From Lentzea kentuckyensis (GTDB taxonomy: Bacteria; Actinomycetota; Actinomycetes; Mycobacteriales; Pseudonocardiaceae), in contig NZ_MUYM01000072.1 of NCBI RefSeq assembly GCF_002150765.1, forward strand, positions 1-64,000: 64,000 nt of DNA, read 5' to 3'. The position numbers were made by a program, and so were the translations under genes. Below are positions 1,868 to 9,285 of the stretch, in pieces. Position 1 is the stretch's first letter; each line of letters starts with the position of its first letter. The notes beneath the pieces are model-generated. The model had not been told where the DNA came from. It saw nothing but the letters and a program-made list of their open reading frames with translations, and did not search any database.

Positions 1868-4192
1868 TTAGTTGAGCACGCAGAGCAGCGAACACGCCTT
1901 GGCGGACGACCAGTCGGTGTAGGTCCGCGCGGCGTTGGGCGGGGTGTACTTCGCCTTCGCCTTGTTGGTCATCGGGAACAACGACAGCAGCGCGTAGGTC
2001 GAGCAGTACACCTGCTTCGACTCACCCGGCTGCAGGGCGAACGGTCCGGTCTGGCAGGCCGGTTCCACCTCGTCGACCACGTAGGCGTCGGCGATCGGGA
2101 TCGGGCCGTTGTTGGTCACGGTGACGCGCCAGTACGCGGTCGCGAACAACAGGCCGAGAACACCCACCGGTGCTTCCTTCACCCACGGCCCGGCGCCGCC
2201 CGCCTTGCAGTGCGCGGGTGTGTGCGAGGCGCAGATCTCCTTGTTCACCACCACGTTCGGCATGCACGCCGCTCCAGGTGCGACCTGCCGGGTCACGGTG
2301 TTGGACGTGAGGGTGCCGGTCGCGTCGGTGCCGCCCGCGGTGTTGGCGATCGACGTGACCGGGCAGTCCGCGGAGATCGTGGTGCGGAAGCACATCTGTG
2401 GCGCGTCACCGGTGAACTCCACGACCAGCGACGGCTGGTTGCCGCCGCCGAAGTCCGCCGCGTTGTTCAGCACGAGCGACGCCGTGACGGTCAGCGAGGT
2501 GGCCGAGGCGCCGCTCAGGTCGACGGTGCCGTCCGGGGCGAAACCCGGTGTGGTCACCGGGTTTCCGTTCTGGTCGACGACCGCGACGGTGGACGCGCCG
2601 AAGTTCACGTTCGCCGGTGTCACGCCCGTCAGGCGTGCCTTCGTGTAGGTGACGGCGCGCGGTTTGCCGTCGCAGTAGAACTGCGACGGGGTGAGCGACA
2701 CGGAGGCGCCACTGCGCACGCATGGCGACGCCCCCGTGTCAGGATCCATCGAGAACAGCACGCCCGCGTCCCCCAGTCCGATCAGGCAACCGGTGGGAGC
2801 GTCGTAGGCGTAGCCGTAATCCCTGGTGACGCCACCGTTGACGTTCGGATGGGTGATGCGCGGTGGCACGCCGGCGCACGACGTTCCGGTGCTCCAGTCG
2901 TGGCACACCGCCGCTCCCACGTACGGGCCGTTCCACACCGCGAGGTAGCTGCGCACGCGGTCACCGGTGCGGATCACCTCCGGGTTGAACACCAGCACGC
3001 CGCCTTCCAGCCCGGCCGCGGCCGACGGTGCGGGCAGGGACGACCCGTCCACCGCGTAGCAGGTGGTGACGTTCGCGCCCCCGGTCGTGCTGGAACACGC
3101 GCCGGCCTCCGCACCCGTTGTGCTGTAGGCGGTGTAGGCGTTGTAGGTGGAGTTGCCGGACGGACCGACCGGTTTCGGGGCCGGCCAGCCCGCGCACGCG
3201 GTCGTGGTGCCGGGATCGAAGCAGCCGAGCACGGGGACGCCTCCGCCGGCCGGTGACGACGAGGCGAACAGCTTGCCCGCGGCGACGGTCGCCGCACCGA
3301 AGTAGTAGCTGCCGTTGTTGGTGTACGGCACGATCGGCGGGTAGGGCTGGTTCGCGCACGCGCTCTGCGTGGCGGGCGTCCAGCAGAGGACATGACCGGA
3401 AGTCGCCACGCCGTAGAGGTTTCCGCCGACCTGGACGAGTCCGGCCAGGTCGGTCGTCTGCCCGCCGCGGGGCATCAGCGGCCAGTAGCCGCAGTTGCCG
3501 GGCGCGGCGAGGTCGAGGCAGCCGACGCCGATCGACGCCGCGGTGATCGCCGCGTAGTACACGCGGGCCGGGTTCGCCGGATCGCGGACGTACTGCGGTT
3601 CGAGCGGGCTGGCGATGTCGCCGGTGTTGCCCGCGCCGAACGGGCCGGGAGTCGTGTTGAGCGGCTTCGGCCACGGACCACCCGCGCACAGGGCGCTGGT
3701 CGTGACGTCGGTGCACACGAGTTTGGGGGCCGCGGCGGCCCCGTGGTGGTAGACGTTCCACGCCTGCAGGCGCCCGTCCGGCGTGCGGTGCAGGATCGGG
3801 GTGAAACCGTCGCCACCGGTGGCGGTCGCGCTGGCCTGCACGGGTGGCGTGAGCAGGCTGGACAGCGCCCTGCCGCCGTTGCGCACGGCGGGAATGGTCG
3901 CGCTGACCGGGTTGCCCTCGGTCCCGGTCCAGCCGGGCGGCACCTGCAGCGAGCCGGGCAGGTAGGTCTGGCCCGCGCCGATGGTGTCGGTGATGGTGGC
4001 GGCACCGGGAGCACCGCTCGCGTACGACACGACCCAGGTGGCGGTGTCGCCGTGACCGGCGGGATCGGACACGCCTTGCACGGACTTGGTGAGCGTGGAA
4101 ACGGACGGCTGGGCGATCACGGGGACAGCGGCGGTGAGCGTGCTGCCAGCGAGCGCGGTCGCCAGCAACAGCACCGGCAAACGTCTTCGCAC
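1868..4192 (-). CDS. Large secreted DUF11-type repeat protein
   Basis: A 774-residue exported protein of unknown role. Residues 1-27 form a signal peptide (MRRRLPVLLLATALAGSTLT then VPVIAQP). Residues 30-100 look like a DUF11 beta-sandwich (LTKSVQGVSDPAG, TWVVSYASGA), and the C-terminal 150 residues carry a second such module (WRVTVTNNGPIPIADAYVVDEV). Between them a Cys-pair motif recurs at least five times: a Cys, then about ten residues rich in Asp/Thr, then C-A-G-x-P/W-x-P, for example CFDPGTTTACAGWPAPKP. That spacing suggests disulfide-stapled propeller-like blades. No catalytic motif or cell-wall anchor is visible. It probably acts outside the cell or in the envelope as a binding or structural protein; this is inference. 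Confidence 0.75.
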   Translation of the reverse strand: MRRRLPVLLLATALAGSTLTAAVPVIAQPSVSTLTKSVQGVSDPAGHGDTATWVVSYASGAPGAATITDTIGAGQTYLPGSLQVPPGWTGTEGNPVSATIPAVRNGGRALSSLLTPPVQASATATGGDGFTPILHRTPDGRLQAWNVYHHGAAAAPKLVCTDVTTSALCAGGPWPKPLNTTPGPFGAGNTGDIASPLEPQYVRDPANPARVYYAAITAASIGVGCLDLAAPGNCGYWPLMPRGGQTTDLAGLVQVGGNLYGVATSGHVLCWTPATQSACANQPYPPIVPYTNNGSYYFGAATVAAGKLFASSSPAGGGVPVLGCFDPGTTTACAGWPAPKPVGPSGNSTYNAYTAYSTTGAEAGACSSTTGGANVTTCYAVDGSSLPAPSAAAGLEGGVLVFNPEVIRTGDRVRSYLAVWNGPYVGAAVCHDWSTGTSCAGVPPRITHPNVNGGVTRDYGYAYDAPTGCLIGLGDAGVLFSMDPDTGASPCVRSGASVSLTPSQFYCDGKPRAVTYTKARLTGVTPANVNFGASTVAVVDQNGNPVTTPGFAPDGTVDLSGASATSLTVTASLVLNNAADFGGGNQPSLVVEFTGDAPQMCFRTTISADCPVTSIANTAGGTDATGTLTSNTVTRQVAPGAACMPNVVVNKEICASHTPAHCKAGGAGPWVKEAPVGVLGLLFATAYWRVTVTNNGPIPIADAYVVDEVEPACQTGPFALQPGESKQVYCSTYALLSLFPMTNKAKAKYTPPNAARTYTDWSSAKACSLLCVLN

Positions 4193-4470
4193 GAGCGAGA
4201 TCCCTTCGGCGGCGGATGAGTTCGGGAACTGGTCGCCGACGCTAGGGACGTGTTCCGCGGCTCATCAACGCCCTCACCCGCGTGCGTGGGATGTCCGCCC
4301 CATCAGACGAATGCGCACAGCCGGAACATGTGATTCGACAAGAGATTCCACCACGACCCCGAATCGGATTTCACCTGAACGCCGCCGATCTGCCGATCCG
4401 AGAAACCAATGCGCGGCAGTTTCGGGCGGCGCGCTATCTCAAGGTCGGCGGGCTGCCCGACACTGGCCGA

Positions 4471-5310
4471 GTGAGTCTTCACGACGAACCACTGCGGATC
4501 CGGGTTCTGGGAACGTTCGAAATCACCCGCGGCAATCGAAGATGCACGCCGACAGCGCCGAAGCAACGGGCGTTGCTCGCGCTGCTCGCCCTGCACGCCA
4601 ACGAGTTCGTGGCCACCCGCCGCATCGTGGACCAGTTGTGGACGCGGGGTGCTCCCCGATCGGCCATCGCCGCGTTGCACGGATACGTCACCGCGGCGCG
4701 GCGCGCACTCACACCGGGGTGGAAGAGTTCCCGCAATTCACATCCCGTCCTGAACACGCGCCCTTCCGGCTACGTGCTCTGCCTGGAACCGCAGCAGCTG
4801 GACCTCACCGGATTCCGTGAACTGGCGAAACGAGCACAGACGGAGATCGCGGCCGGCGACTGCGCGCGAGCACGGGAGACAGTCACAGCGGCGCTGAGTC
4901 TGTGGCGCGGCTCGCCATTGGCGGATCTGCGCGAGACCGGCATGTTCGACCACGACATCACTCGCTTGGAAAAGGAATACCTGGAATTGCTGCGCAACCG
5001 GTTCGACGTCATGCTCTGTGACGGCGACGGCCACCTCGCGGTGGGCGAACTCGAGGAGCTGTGCACGAACTACCCGCTGCGCGAACGGTTCCACGAACAG
5101 CTGATGCTCGCGCTGTGCCAGGCCGAGCGCCGCGCCGACGCGCTGACCGCCTACGCCAGGGCGTACCGCGAGCTGTCGAGTCATGCCGGCATCGAGCCAG
5201 GGCCCCGGTTGCGGGCCCTGCACCAGGTCGTCCTCAGCGGGGACGACCCGTTCGACCGCGGGCGCCGGCACCTCGCCGGGCTACGGGTGGCGCACGCCGT
5301 TTCTCCTTAA
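4471..5310 (+). CDS. SARP-family (BTAD) transcriptional activator
   Basis: A 279-residue Streptomyces antibiotic regulatory protein. The N-terminal OmpR-type winged helix spans roughly residues 5-100 (RIRVLGTFEI ... PKQRALLALLALHAN). The bacterial transcriptional activation domain follows (YVLCLEPQQLDLTGFREL ... AGDCARARETVTAALSLWRG) to about residue 255. GTG 4471 is chosen because it puts the DNA-binding domain at the N-terminus; in-frame codons reach back to 4282 and no clear ribosome site separates them. It faces the RiPP-like operon and overlaps its last gene tail to tail by 30 bp. The TTGGAG repeats at 9337-9364 have the 11-bp period SARPs recognise, so it is the likely activator of that operon. 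Confidence 0.88.
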   Translation: MSLHDEPLRIRVLGTFEITRGNRRCTPTAPKQRALLALLALHANEFVATRRIVDQLWTRGAPRSAIAALHGYVTAARRALTPGWKSSRNSHPVLNTRPSGYVLCLEPQQLDLTGFRELAKRAQTEIAAGDCARARETVTAALSLWRGSPLADLRETGMFDHDITRLEKEYLELLRNRFDVMLCDGDGHLAVGELEELCTNYPLRERFHEQLMLALCQAERRADALTAYARAYRELSSHAGIEPGPRLRALHQVVLSGDDPFDRGRRHLAGLRVAHAVSP

Positions 5311-5799
5311 CCCCCAGTCGAACAGCCGCCGGTAGCAGACCAGCGGCTCGGCCTCCGTCACCTCGGTCCGGGTGACCTCGCCGATCAGGACGGTGTGGTC
5401 GCCGTGGTCGAACACGGCGGTGGTGGTGCAGCGCAGGTAGATCGGCGCCGCGCACAGCCTGGGCACCGCACCGTCCCACTCCCACCCGACGCCGGCGAAC
5501 TTGTCCGCGCCCCGGCTCGCGAACGTCCGCGCGGTTCGTTCCTCGGTCCGGCCGAGCACGTGCACGCCGAACTCCGCGCAGTGCGTCAGCGGGTCACGGC
5601 AGCGCGAGGCGTGATCGACGACCACCAGCACCGACGGCGGATCCACGCTGTACGAGCAGATCGACGAGACGAGCAACCCGCACGGCTGCCCGCTCGCCTG
5701 GCGCGTGGTGACCACGGCCAGGCCCGACACCAGCCGGCTCATCGCGTCGGTGAACGTGGCCACTGGGAGGCCGGCGGCCACGTTCTCCGTTGCTGTCAC
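5281..5799 (-). CDS. Flavin reductase-like protein
   Basis: A 172-residue protein of the flavin reductase (FMN-binding split barrel) family, the NAD(P)H:flavin component that feeds reduced flavin to two-component monooxygenases. Typical features are VSGLAVVTTRQ near residue 25, then GLLVSSICSYSVDPPSVLVVVD, and the HxxG-like FDHGDHTVLIGEV toward the end. GTG 5799 has a strong GTAGGAGG ribosome site, which decides the start. It lies 11 bp after the TPR gene and is the last gene of the operon that begins with a precursor-like peptide. No partner monooxygenase is encoded in this operon, so it may reduce flavin for a distant enzyme or act on the peptide directly; this is open. Confidence 0.85.
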   Translation of the reverse strand: MTATENVAAGLPVATFTDAMSRLVSGLAVVTTRQASGQPCGLLVSSICSYSVDPPSVLVVVDHASRCRDPLTHCAEFGVHVLGRTEERTARTFASRGADKFAGVGWEWDGAVPRLCAAPIYLRCTTTAVFDHGDHTVLIGEVTRTEVTEAEPLVCYRRLFDWGLRRNGVRHP

Positions 5800-5810
5800 C
5801 GCGGTTCCTC

Positions 5811-7886
5811 CTACCGGGCCGTGGCGGCGGCGCAGAGTTCCCTGCGCTGCCGTGCGTCCTCGTCGTCGGTGACGGCGAGCACCGCGTCGTAGTCGAGGAT
5901 CGCCGCGCCCAGGTCGCCGGACTCCTCGTAGGCGATCGCGCGGTTGAACCGCGCCTCCGGGTTGTCGTCGAGGGTGATGGCCCGGCTCAGGTAGCTGATC
6001 GCGTCGGTGAGGTCGCCGGACGCCACCGCGATCGTGCCGCGGATCGCCCAGGCCTCCGCCAGCCGTTCGTCGCGCCGCACGGCCTCGGCCAGCGCGGCGG
6101 AGGCCTCGGCGTACTCCTCCTGTTCGACGAGCAGCTGTCCCTTGAGACACAACAGGTGTGCGTTGTCGGGCGCCAGTTCGAGCGCGGCGGCCACATCGTG
6201 TGCCGCCCCTTCGATGTCGCCGACGGCGAGCAGCAGCCCGGCGCGGTTGATCCTGGCGTCGACGTGCCGCGGGTCCAGTTCGATGACGTACCCGAAGTCC
6301 GCCAGGGCACCTTCGGTGTCGCCGAGGGCGAGGCGAGCGTCGGCGAGGTTGTAGTACGCCTCGGGGAACGGCGGCGACAGTCGCAGTGCCTCGCGGTAGG
6401 CGGCGATCGCCTCCTCGTCGCGGCCGAGCCTGCGCAGGACGTTGCCGACGTTGAAGTGGTGCTCGGGGAAGTTCGGATCGCGTTCGAGGACGTAGGTGTA
6501 GTCGGCGAGCGCGTCTTCCAGCCGGCCCATGCCGCCGTAGACCTGCGCCCGGTTGTAGCGCAGCACCAGGCGGTGCAGCGCGTGTTCGTGCGGCTCCAGG
6601 TCCCGGTCGAGCCTGGCCATGCCCTCGTTGACGAGGGCGAGCGCGACCTCGGGCTTCCTTTCGCGCACTTCCACGAGGGCCAGGCCGTTGCGGGTGAAGA
6701 CGGACTGGAACGCCTCAGCTTTGGGATCAGTCAACACTGAAGCCATCGCAATAGCCAAATTCATCCACGCCCGTGCGCGCACATAGTCCCGTTGGGCTTC
6801 CGGGTAGTGCCGGGCGTGCAACATCGCCGTCGAGTACGCCATTTCCAGGTGCACGGCCGGATCCGTGGACGCGGCACGACCCTCGACGTACAGCGCTTCC
6901 GCCTCGTCCGCCCGGCCGACCGCCGCCAGCACGATCCCGGTCTGCATGGTCAGGTGCCACCAGGTCTCGGTCTCCCGGTCCGCGACCGCCCGGCCGCGCA
7001 GGCCGGCGTCCGCGGCGGCCTGGTAGAGCCCGGTCTTGTGGCAGTGGTCCAGTGCGGCGCGCAGGGCCGCGGCACCGGCTCCGGCGGGGTCGCTGCCGTG
7101 CTCCAGGTGATATGGGATCGCACCGAGGTGCAACGAGAACTCCGTGGACCGTGCGAGCTCCTCGGCGCGGGCGTCGTGCAGCGCGGCTCTGGCCTCGTCC
7201 GACAGCGCGAGGTAGGCGGCGAGCACCAGCGGGTCGTCGTCGGTGCCGTCACTGTCCACATAGGCCTGGGCCGGGTGGTCGGGCAACGGGTGGTCTCCGC
7301 CGCAGGCTTCCACGACCTGTGCGTGTGCGGCGACCGTCTCCGCGAGCGACACGTCGATCTCGCCGCGCGGGTCCACCAGCGGTTCCCGGCTCGTGCCGAC
7401 GACCACGGTGAGGCCGGGCAGGTCGCCGCGGCGCAGCAGGACCGCGATGAACTCCTGGTCCGACGGGTCGGCCTCGTGCGCGTTCTCGAACACCAGCGTG
7501 CGCGGCCCACCGCCGAGTGCGGCCAGATAGTCGCGCAACAGCTCGGCCAGGCCGTTCGCGATGTTGCGGGTGTGCAGCCGCGAGTAGTAGCGGGTGCGTT
7601 CGCTGTCCTTCACCTCCCACTCCAGCGTGTGCCACGCGCTGGGCACCCTCCCGGCCAGTTCCGGCGTGCTGGTGAGGAGCTCGATGTTGTGCCGCTCCCC
7701 CAGTTCCGGACACCGCTCCAGCAGGTCGTCGGCGATCATCCGCACCAACGACCCCGCCGCGGTGTACGGCCCGCGCAGCCGCCGATGCGCGTCGACAGCC
7801 GCCCAGACCGGTGGCAGGTCCAGTGCGGCGAGCGCGTGCGTCCGGTCGCCTCGCCGATCCGCGCGGATCCAGTAGCGGCTGTCCAT
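5811..7886 (-). CDS. TPR protein with degenerate STAND-type ATPase region
   Basis: A 691-residue cytoplasmic protein. Residues 130-170 (LVFENAHEADPSDQEFIAVL, then LTVVVGTSR) resemble the Walker B and sensor strands of LuxR/AfsR-type STAND ATPases, where the motif is normally LLVLDDAHWADP. The expected Walker A near residues 38-50 reads RLRGPYTAAGSLVR and lacks GxxxxGKT, so ATP hydrolysis is unlikely. About 410 onward consists of tandem tetratricopeptide repeats (DALADYTYVLERDPNFPE, EAIAAYREALRLSPPFPE and others). It has no DNA-binding domain. It sits between the PqqD/M50 and flavin reductase genes with gaps of 24 and 11 bp, so it is probably a scaffold or partner-binding protein of the peptide pathway. 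That role is inferred from position only. Confidence 0.8.
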   Translation of the reverse strand: MDSRYWIRADRRGDRTHALAALDLPPVWAAVDAHRRLRGPYTAAGSLVRMIADDLLERCPELGERHNIELLTSTPELAGRVPSAWHTLEWEVKDSERTRYYSRLHTRNIANGLAELLRDYLAALGGGPRTLVFENAHEADPSDQEFIAVLLRRGDLPGLTVVVGTSREPLVDPRGEIDVSLAETVAAHAQVVEACGGDHPLPDHPAQAYVDSDGTDDDPLVLAAYLALSDEARAALHDARAEELARSTEFSLHLGAIPYHLEHGSDPAGAGAAALRAALDHCHKTGLYQAAADAGLRGRAVADRETETWWHLTMQTGIVLAAVGRADEAEALYVEGRAASTDPAVHLEMAYSTAMLHARHYPEAQRDYVRARAWMNLAIAMASVLTDPKAEAFQSVFTRNGLALVEVRERKPEVALALVNEGMARLDRDLEPHEHALHRLVLRYNRAQVYGGMGRLEDALADYTYVLERDPNFPEHHFNVGNVLRRLGRDEEAIAAYREALRLSPPFPEAYYNLADARLALGDTEGALADFGYVIELDPRHVDARINRAGLLLAVGDIEGAAHDVAAALELAPDNAHLLCLKGQLLVEQEEYAEASAALAEAVRRDERLAEAWAIRGTIAVASGDLTDAISYLSRAITLDDNPEARFNRAIAYEESGDLGAAILDYDAVLAVTDDEDARQRRELCAAATAR

Positions 7887-7910
7887 GGTGCGTCCTTTCG
7901 GTGAACCGAG

Positions 7911-9116
7911 TCAGTGGATGACGTGCTGCAAACCGCGGTCCCGGCGGGTCTGCACGCGCTCGCGGACCATGAGCCAGCCGAGCACCGCGCACTGCGCTAT
8001 CGCCACGCCGCCGAACACCACCGAGTCGAGCAACAGGGGCGCCGGCACCCCGTCACCGGTGATCCGGCCGATCACGCCGGTGGCGAACCGGTAGGCCACC
8101 GGGGCGCCGGCGAGCACGAACGTCGTGAGGCTGGCCGTGTACCCGGCCACGACGAGCCACGAGTACCAGCGCGCCACCTGGCGGTCGACCGGGTGCAGCA
8201 GCGACTCGTCGGTCTCATCGCGCCCGAACAGCCGCCGGAACCGGTTGCGGACGATCTGGCGGGCCGCGCCGTGCAGGTCGACGCAGCCGAGCACCGTGGT
8301 CACGAGGACGTAGATGTCCGTGCGCAGGTAGAAGAAGAACTGCCAGATGACCCGCAGCAGGGCGGCGAACGCCACTGCCAGCAGGAAACGACCCACACCC
8401 GACAGCGAACCGTCCGGGTGCCGCGTCAGGTCGGCGGCGATGGTGCACACGGCGATCCCGATGAGGTCGGCCAGCAGCCCGGCCACGATCGGCAGGTACC
8501 GCTTGCGCCGCGGCACCGCCACGAGCCCGTCCAGCGAGGTCTCCAGCACGATGAAGTAGAGCCGCCGCCCGATTCTCAGTCGCGATTTGACGCCGAGTCT
8601 GCGTCCGGCCAATGCGTGAAATGACTCGTGCATGAGCAGCAGTGGAATTGCGGCGACGAACAGGCCGGCCTGGATCACCATGTAATAGTCGGAGAAGAAT
8701 ATGTTGTGATAACTCGGCCTGAGGTCCGCGTTGAACACCATGACGAACAACGCCCACCCGGCCAGACCCGCGTAGACCACCCAGGCCACCGGGGAGAACA
8801 GCGCGGCACCGAGCCGTGAGAAGCGCACCGGCGCGCTCTCCGTGGCCAGTTCGCCGGACCTGCGGATGAGGTCGAGCTCGCCCAGTCCCGCGACGACGTC
8901 CTCGATGTCGACGTCTTCGCCGTAGGCCTGCTCGAACCAGCCGGCGGCCTGGCGCGGCGTGTCGCCCGCGACCAGTCTGCGCACGAGTTCGGCGCCCTCA
9001 ACTGGGAAGATGCCGTAGGAGTCGACGTCGGCCCTGCCGATCGTCACCTCGTCGCCGTCCTCCAGGAACACCAGCGGGTGCAGTGGCACCGGCCGGTCCG
9101 GATCGAACTCGGTCAC
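7911..9116 (-). CDS. PqqD-like plus HExxH (M50-like) membrane protein of a RiPP locus
   Basis: A 401-residue membrane protein. Residues 10-95 (LVFLEDGDEVTIGR ... AAGWFEQAYGEDVDIEDVVAGLGELDLI) resemble a PqqD/RRE-type winged helix, the fold that binds RiPP leader peptides. Hydrophobic segments follow, and residues 163-167 are HESFH inside LLLMHESFHALAGRRLG, the zinc-binding motif of M50 site-2-type peptidases, on the face of a membrane helix. A further intramembrane segment LLADLIGIAV may supply the third ligand. GTG 9116 is preceded by GGGGGAGGAG. The gene lies directly after the 35-residue peptide gene. The likely role is to bind the peptide and cleave or export it; no dedicated ABC exporter is present. 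The family is recognised only by motif. Confidence 0.8.
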   Translation of the reverse strand: MTEFDPDRPVPLHPLVFLEDGDEVTIGRADVDSYGIFPVEGAELVRRLVAGDTPRQAAGWFEQAYGEDVDIEDVVAGLGELDLIRRSGELATESAPVRFSRLGAALFSPVAWVVYAGLAGWALFVMVFNADLRPSYHNIFFSDYYMVIQAGLFVAAIPLLLMHESFHALAGRRLGVKSRLRIGRRLYFIVLETSLDGLVAVPRRKRYLPIVAGLLADLIGIAVCTIAADLTRHPDGSLSGVGRFLLAVAFAALLRVIWQFFFYLRTDIYVLVTTVLGCVDLHGAARQIVRNRFRRLFGRDETDESLLHPVDRQVARWYSWLVVAGYTASLTTFVLAGAPVAYRFATGVIGRITGDGVPAPLLLDSVVFGGVAIAQCAVLGWLMVRERVQTRRDRGLQHVIH

Positions 9117-9136
9117 CTCGCTCCTCCCCCTGGTGA

Positions 9137-9166
9137 GATGCGCTGGGCGCCGAGGCCCAGCGCATC
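9137..9166 (-). terminator. Perfect 12-bp hairpin between peptide gene and its maturase
   Basis: GATGCGCTGGGC (9137-9148) and GCCCAGCGCATC (9155-9166) are exact reverse complements around a 6-nt loop. The hairpin lies 11 bp after the stop codon of the peptide gene and before the ribosome site of the next gene. There is no U-tract. Such a structure commonly acts as a partial terminator or RNA 3' stabiliser that makes precursor mRNA more abundant than mRNA for the modifying enzymes. Confidence 0.65.
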
Positions 9167-9177
9167 CGCGCCGCGCC

Positions 9178-9285
9178 TTAGACCGGCTTGGTGTTGTACT
9201 GCGAGCAGGCGGCCGCCGTGAGGCGGACCGGCCCCACCTTGCGCACCGTGATCTTCTTCATTTTCGTCGACTTGGTCTTCTCCAT
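9178..9285 (-). CDS. 35-residue RiPP precursor-like peptide
   Basis: A very small gene at the head of the operon. ATG 9285 is preceded by AGAGGAGG at ideal spacing, and TAA ends it at 9178. The first half of the peptide is strongly basic (six Lys and two Arg in the first 21 residues, motif MKKITVRKVG). The last 13 residues read TAAACSQYNTKPV, with a single Cys at position 27. The leader/core layout, the following hairpin, the SARP-like repeats upstream and the PqqD/HExxH gene downstream all fit a ribosomally synthesised and modified peptide. It matches no lanthipeptide, lasso or thiopeptide precursor I know: one Cys, no LanM/LanB, no YcaO, no lasso B/C genes. The modification and activity are unknown. 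Confidence 0.75.
   Translation of the reverse strand: MEKTKSTKMKKITVRKVGPVRLTAAACSQYNTKPV

Follow-up and report, generated by a model that had tools for sequence, protein, structure and literature searches.

The 64,000-nucleotide window analyzed here (positions 1 to 64,000 of contig NZ_MUYM01000072.1 of Lentzea kentuckyensis) contains a compact candidate operon for a ribosomally synthesized and post-translationally modified peptide (RiPP). It opens with a precursor peptide gene on the minus strand (9285-9178, ATG start), which encodes 35 residues with a single Cys and the tail TAAACSQYNTKPV; an AGGAGG ribosome-binding site lies ahead of it at 9298-9293 on the same strand, and purine-rich sites precede the peptide gene in Lentzea relatives too. 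The following gene (9116-7911, minus strand, GTG start) specifies a 401-residue protein with seven hydrophobic stretches, in which a predicted RiPP recognition element (RRE) at about residues 12-85 is joined to a putative M50 protease; its HExxH motif occupies residues 163-167 (8630-8616, minus strand), and Asp267 (8318-8316, minus strand) is a candidate third zinc ligand. A 691-residue protein is encoded next (7886-5811, minus strand), with a degenerate AAA/STAND-like N-terminal domain and then an array of tetratricopeptide repeats (TPR), and last comes an accessory flavin reductase gene of family PF01613 (5799-5281, minus strand, GTG start, 172 residues). The gaps between these genes are 61, 24, and 11 bp. 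The original prediction for this DNA had described the peptide frame, its AGGAGG site, the downstream open reading frames (ORFs), and the same three gaps, and all were reproduced at the same coordinates; its naming of the flavin reductase likewise holds (Flavin_Reduct, 1.9e-29).

Two features were absent from that prediction. One is a gene for a Streptomyces antibiotic regulatory protein (SARP; 4282-5310, plus strand; BTAD, 1.2e-36), which is convergent with the flavin reductase gene and overlaps its end by 30 bp. The other is a set of three heptamer direct repeats spaced at 11 bp upstream of the peptide gene (TTTTGGA, TCTTGGA, and TCTTGGA; 9366-9338, minus strand), a candidate SARP operator, with CAGACT at 9328-9323 on the same strand as a possible -10 element. 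The order of the peptide, RRE-M50, TPR, flavin reductase, and SARP genes is kept in all eight Lentzea records; eight of the ten named records are Lentzea, and the closest named relative, L. alba, is 91% identical in the 401-residue protein. Beside the operon lies a gene (1868-4192, minus strand) for a protein of 774 residues that has a DUF7617 domain and begins with a signal-like stretch. This protein probably stands outside the cassette, since among the eight Lentzea records only L. alba has the gene within the 17-kb locus.

The precursor peptide, its leader and its core

Relatives were gathered with a profile of the 401-residue protein, searched against an order-level set of 397 genomes and a class-level set of 394; matches at E 1e-10 or better were found in 53 and 18 of these, respectively, with the window's own genome counted in both. 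From about 97 distinct matched places (a hand count) 60 regions were taken, which together with ten loci from named records give 70 loci, the window excluded. The 43 loci with a TPR homologue after the protease gene are called TPR-type here, presence being counted by hidden Markov model search; simple gene calls, which in L097, L103, L109, L116, and L119 chose frames antisense to the TPR gene, were not used for these counts.

The peptide frame is conserved, both in itself and in its position. In all 43 TPR-type loci a short upstream ORF fits the peptide profile at 9.3e-10 or better, a count that is partly circular as the profile was built from 36 peptides of which 27 come from these loci (L092 and L101, for example, lie outside it). 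A profile of 23 peptides, searched by itself against the 397 order genomes, gave 35 matches below 1e-9, spread over 27 genomes. Every one of these matches lies upstream of an RRE-M50 gene, and the 27 genomes coincide with those in which the 29 RRE-M50 matches below 1e-130 are located. Eleven weaker matches (1e-9 to 0.01) were also returned; two adjoin an RRE-M50 gene and nine do not. Judged by its codons, the peptide gene in Lentzea is under purifying selection, with 3, 3, and 11 variable sites at codon positions one, two, and three, respectively (10 Lentzea precursors, 27 codons from MKK on). A chance reading frame is rejected by the upstream conservation in TPR-type loci, the codon-position pattern, and the peptide-only search. 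The original prediction had named loss of the peptide frame or its spacing in relatives as grounds for abandoning it; both the frame and its place persist. Among the 27 loci without a TPR gene, several have no profile match on the scale of E 10, or weak matches only, and hence no recognizable peptide (for example, L114, L124, L130, L132, L138-L140, L144, and L145). The 35-residue peptide has no Pfam match (one peptide tried), and NCBIfam returned none for seven such peptides.

Conservation places the boundary between a predicted leader, at about residues 1-23 (9285-9217, minus strand), and a predicted core, at about residues 24-35 (9216-9181, minus strand). The leader of the window peptide is MKKITVRKVGPVRLT, and an alignment of 23 precursors has the common head M-K-K-I-x-[VI]-R-K-x-G-x-[VI]-R-L-T with small variations. 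The tails vary, from AAACSQYNTKPV in the window to ARGCYCYCCCCCGAVAMQ and TAATFYDNPLCWPF in other loci, and they nonetheless share two residues: all 28 distinct tails contain Tyr and at least one Cys, with the first Tyr four to eight positions after LT in every one and at position six or seven in 21. In the tail of locus L032 the Cys lies 16 residues from the Tyr. Against the residue frequencies of the RRE-M50 and TPR proteins, and assuming independent tails, the chance of such a pattern is about 10^-42, a figure that overstates its significance because the tails are related. Further, genome G180 (locus L110, G180:C1:4219466-4220542) has seven tandem precursors before one RRE-M50 gene; all seven contain QPLYxGxC, and their ends differ after it. 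At the level of sequence, the precursors thus have the pattern of a conserved leader and a variable core encoded beside processing genes.

The RRE-M50 protein and the TPR protein

That the 401-residue protein is PqqD-like and carries an HExxH motif in a membrane setting had been proposed before, and several lines of family evidence confirm it. Among 55 homologues at E 0.05, Pfam recognizes Peptidase_M50 in 20 and PqqD in six, and His163, Glu164, His167, and Asp267 are invariant in the alignment of all 55. A profile search of solved structures reached the RREs TbiB1 (E 0.002) and TfuB1 (E 0.01); the zinc metalloprotease chain 7w6y followed at E 0.21, below significance. NCBIfam gave no useful name. 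The AlphaFold model (pLDDT 93, pTM 0.86) begins with three strands and three helices and continues in long hydrophobic helices, and seven of its top eight Foldseek rows bear an RRE (probability 0.98-1.00), the eighth being a sorting nexin (probability 0.10). The leading rows include TigE as well as the leader-bound TbiB1 and TfuB1; McbB, CteB, SkfB, the PbtF RRE, and PqqD are found lower. RseP, at rank 19, has a probability of 0.63, and the proteins in between are unrelated membrane or helical proteins, mostly at probabilities of 0.10 or less. The best E value in this search was 0.11 and no row passed 0.001, which probably reflects how small a share of the model each domain takes up. By sequence family and predicted fold, then, the protein joins an RRE, a leader-binding domain like PqqD, to a site-2 protease of the M50 family. 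Such a fusion would be suited to bind and cut a leader, which favors the processing half of the earlier proposal that the HExxH protein processes or exports the peptide, the analysis giving nothing for or against export.

The TPR protein looks to be the second constant element of the cassette, rather than the flavin enzyme. Every locus with an RRE-M50 score above 430 bits is TPR-type, and the one further member of the 43 is L032, whose frames are fragmented; scores in the 27 remaining loci reach 416 bits at most. In L032 (Streptacidiphilus) and L094, the RRE-M50 frame, the TPR frame, or both are in several pieces, as in decayed copies or assembly errors. Across the wider phylum, few genomes have a full-length TPR homologue (3 of 346 at 1e-40, the window's own counted), and the N-terminal part used as a query found 11 of 197 class genomes at 1e-6, again with the window's own counted. 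Eleven TPR loci reached with this query, all from f31, another actinobacterial family, lack any RRE-M50 match. In nine of them (L219-L224, L226, L228, and L229) a 24-residue peptide with a similar head (MKKIIIRKPGTTKLSGTSSVIHKG, MKKIIVHKPGTAKLSAAASPRHLT) lies just before the TPR start or overlaps it, with the tail SSVIHKG, SVIHKG, or PRHLT, devoid of Tyr and Cys; near the TPR frames of L225 and L227 such a peptide was looked for and not found. Of the two f31 neighborhoods scanned, L229 has smc and ftsY beside the pair, and L220 has an NsdA-family gene. These peptide-TPR pairs occur without an RRE-M50 gene, so the association of the TPR protein with such peptides does not depend on the protease.

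These distributions bear on a narrower reading of the locus, according to which only the peptide and the RRE-M50 protein form a unit while the flavin reductase and the TPR protein serve another function. A distant clade, in which related peptides with a leader resembling MKKLxVRKLExxKTSA stand beside RRE-M50 genes and no TPR homologue was found in the locus, speaks for a two-gene unit. However, the TPR gene follows in every locus above the 430-bit level and in the broken one, and peptides of the same family adjoin TPR genes where the protease is missing. A separate function for the two genes is consequently improbable.

Two groups of RRE-M50 loci may be noted separately. In L111, L112, L113, L123, L127-L129, and L131, peptides of the type MKKLxVRKLExxKTSAxxxxC lie beside the RRE-M50 gene and no TPR homologue was found in the locus, which perhaps makes this clade a smaller system. 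In a distant clade of 15 loci (L114, L124, L130, L132, and L136-L146), a gene of one cluster precedes the RRE-M50 gene; it is ThiF/E1-like in both cases scanned, one of which has a sub-threshold TIGR03882 match, and some of these loci carry peptides such as MKIEIRRIESVRVTVIVGGPTDS. This clade of 15 loci seems to hold a further RiPP-like system whose chemistry is different.

Within the TPR protein itself, the TPR signal is clear in the Pfam scan, and the long array is modeled at a pLDDT of 94. The N-terminal domain is more divergent: 11 of the 20 homologues have a weak AAA_16-like match (E 0.1 or better, among the matches listed), and a PDB sequence search gave five rows, all at E above 0.09, and left the domain unnamed. 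It is called pseudo-STAND here. The P-loop described as dead in the original prediction is indeed so, GxxxxGK[ST] being missing from all 20 homologues, each of which has an invariant RGP[YF][TS] in its place.

Regulation, flavin enzymes and the proposed pathway

Direct repeats spaced at 11 bp are the operator form of SARPs. The window repeats score 19 of 21, a value reached in none of 200 shuffles, and the same arrangement is present in all 10 Lentzea regions examined, each better than 200 of 200 shuffles. Repeats of other heptamers (0 or 1 of 200 shuffles) precede the cassette in L088, L089, L109, L115, L117, L118, L119, L120, and L126; the test used simple base shuffles on 45 regions, in which fewer than one such case is expected by chance. 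L115 is a second cassette in the genome of the window (G000:C16:5900-9300 within G000:C16:1-17100), with the precursor MQKMSIRKAGTIRLTSPSYYCPCSAN, RRE-M50, TPR, and flavin reductase genes, and a SARP-bearing ORF; three perfect TGTCGAC repeats at 11-bp spacing lie upstream. The SARP of the window has a BTAD domain above cut-off and a Trans_reg_C match of 25.9 bits, just under the cut-off of 26.2, and its true start may lie downstream of 4282, since the alignment begins at residues 53-68 in six of eight homologues. Between 3 kb upstream and 5.5 kb downstream of the protease start, a SARP is found in 23 of the 43 TPR-type loci and in 4 of the 27 others (flanks are complete in 37 of the 43 and in 26 of the 27). 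Likewise, in the 21 TPR-type loci outside the eight Lentzea records, a SARP occurs in 10 near windows versus 2 far windows of equal size. From this anatomy, the SARP at 4282-5310 probably binds the repeats and switches the operon on, so that the peptide, RRE-M50, TPR, and flavin reductase genes would be transcribed as one.

Flavin enzymes are less constant companions. A flavin reductase gene adjoins 20 of the 43 TPR-type loci, namely the eight Lentzea records and 12 others, including L103, where it lies upstream; that of L097, encoded on the opposite strand at a distance of 4 kb, is left out of this count. In four loci (L118-L121) a gene of the old yellow enzyme (OYE) family (Oxidored_FMN) replaces it after the TPR gene. 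A flavoenzyme is therefore common yet not part of the minimal set, and the original prediction that the peptide is oxidized through the flavin enzyme is weakly supported: flavoenzymes are frequent at these loci, but they are not obligatory.

Taken together, the locus is probably a RiPP-type biosynthetic operon and a candidate for a new RiPP class, one for which no named match was found. After SARP-driven transcription, the leader would join the N-terminal RRE of the 401-residue membrane protein as an additional β strand, a mode of binding well supported by the family assignments and in line with the predicted fold. The TPR protein may also recognize the peptide and might hold or modify its core at the Tyr and Cys that recur there, the 172-residue reductase supplying reduced flavin in this strain; the case for a TPR protein and reduced flavin acting on the core is a weak one. 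The M50 site would then cut the leader off at the membrane and release a short Tyr/Cys peptide, a step for which there is good ground by analogy with the daptide peptidase MpaP and other M50 peptidases of RiPP pathways. In its boldest form, this proposal makes the pseudo-STAND/TPR protein the maturase of a new RiPP class: it would recognize MKKIxVRKxGxVRLT and, with reduced flavin where a reductase is present, oxidize the core Tyr or cross-link it with Cys, before an intramembrane protease guided by its RRE liberates the product. A peptide-TPR unit related to this one, but lacking the protease, exists in f31. The boldest form is put forward tentatively, as a possibility that is more apt to be wrong than right.

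Several observations weigh against such a pathway. The 401-residue window protein alone has no Pfam match, neither PqqD nor M50. Foldseek on the TPR model gave, in the best 50 of 1755 rows, mostly TPR or helical-repeat proteins and no flavoenzyme by title. Of the other 15 TPR-type loci with a SARP nearby, eight lack the repeats (more than 1 of 200 shuffles; L031, L032, L087, L096, L104, L110, L116, and L121), and L109 and L117 have repeats with no SARP detected. No transporter is among the nine ORFs scanned around the operon, between 1868 and 13225. Finally, none of the recognized modifying enzymes is indispensable: in 19 of the 43 TPR-type loci neither a flavin reductase gene nor an OYE gene was found beside the cassette, although among these the sequence of L101 stops within the TPR gene and that of L122 some 0.6 kb beyond it.

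The last of these points also speaks for the main rival explanation, peptide signaling. Here the RRE-M50 protein would release an essentially unmodified Tyr/Cys peptide as a pheromone, and the TPR protein would be its intracellular receptor, acting on the SARP in a positive loop on the peptide promoter. The sensor half of large SARP/STAND regulators resembles the STAND-like and BTAD-like make-up of the TPR protein, in which the degenerate N-terminal domain is accompanied by BTAD matches in 10 of 20 homologues (among the matches listed). The concentration of SARP genes near TPR-type loci fits a receptor as well, as do the protease-free peptide-TPR pairs of f31, several of which have the constant tail SSVIHKG or SVIHKG. 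However, the seven tandem precursors of G180, with different tails and one TPR gene, are ill-suited to a single receptor, the flavin reductase so often found at these loci has no obvious signaling role, and the domain families listed for the TPR protein of the window include no helix-turn-helix (HTH) or other DNA-binding domain. Signaling is accordingly judged rather unlikely, if still a serious contender.

Whichever role it has, the cassette offers a clear group of precursors in which Tyr and Cys recur, a minimal gene set as found in nature (peptide, RRE-M50, and TPR), and a likely switch for expression in the SARP. It would allow tests of whether a degenerate ATPase/TPR protein works as a RiPP enzyme or as a receptor for the peptide, and of how membrane proteases guided by an RRE select their substrates.

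Comparison with known systems

The original prediction found no classical maturase in the operon, and Pfam agrees. Maturases of the lanthipeptide, YcaO, lasso, and radical-SAM classes are missing from the operon and the flanking ORFs scanned, and neither a LanB-like gene of the pearlin type (peptide aminoacyl-tRNA ligase, PEARL) nor a radical SAM gene is among the nine ORFs. Genome mining based on known classes would probably miss the cassette because it has no textbook maturase.

The protease has closer relatives than the cassette as a whole. Daptide clusters, found in Actinomycetota and others, have several short precursors each, and their peptidase MpaP/DapP, from Microbacterium paraoxydans and relatives, is described as an N-terminal RRE fused to an intramembrane site-2 protease that is said to remove the leader (PMC10036551). 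The Lentzea protein shares this fusion and its domain order, which is what would argue for a daptide cluster, complete or abridged, and as MpaP has the same make-up, the protein type is already known (PMC10036551). The earlier statement that the system is of an unrecognized type is therefore fair for the whole cassette but not for its RRE-M50 fusion peptidase. Three defining features contradict daptide membership, which is rejected: the leader motif ELExMEAP is not that of these peptides (23 aligned precursors), none of the 28 distinct cores ends in the invariant C-terminal Thr, and the daptide aminotransferase, Fe-dependent alcohol dehydrogenase, and methyltransferase are missing from the nine ORFs scanned, the genome beyond them being unsearched. 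A TPR protein and a SARP are found in place of the daptide enzymes, and a daptide origin is very improbable.

Other membrane M50 peptidases of RiPP pathways are EpeP of the epipeptides and TglG and TmoG of the pearlins, for which the portion of the source consulted mentions no fused RRE, in contrast to the Lentzea protein (PMC10885120). The TMcin protease TmcP is assigned to the site-2 clan (PMC13252029). The lasso RREs TbiB1 and TfuB1, the best solved relatives of the N-terminal domain and solved with bound leader, are stand-alone chains of 84-99 residues, whereas in Lentzea the domain is fused to the protease.

For the TPR protein, the likeness depends on the role it is given. RRNPP pairs consist of a small peptide and a TPR receptor that acts on the peptide's regulon, often with an HTH. 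The Lentzea locus is alike in that a small peptide gene adjoins a TPR gene, and unlike in that the window's TPR protein has a degenerate ATPase-like domain and no listed HTH, and in that the locus includes a leader-binding protease. As a RiPP enzyme, the TPR protein may be set beside BhaC1, a TPR-containing hydroxylase of pearlin biosynthesis that depends on flavin mononucleotide and hydroxylates Trp on a RiPP scaffold (PMC11002830). BhaC1 is the precedent that makes a TPR/flavin step on the core thinkable: both would pair a TPR protein and flavin with an aromatic residue of a RiPP peptide, a likeness at the level of description, and the Lentzea protein differs in its degenerate AAA/STAND-like N-terminal domain. 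The whole combination is named in no title or abstract opening of the open-access literature searched, subscription papers being mostly outside its scope. Each part of the cassette, the RRE-M50 fusion, the TPR protein, the flavin reductase, and the SARP, is of a known type, and their combination is a candidate novelty in that literature.

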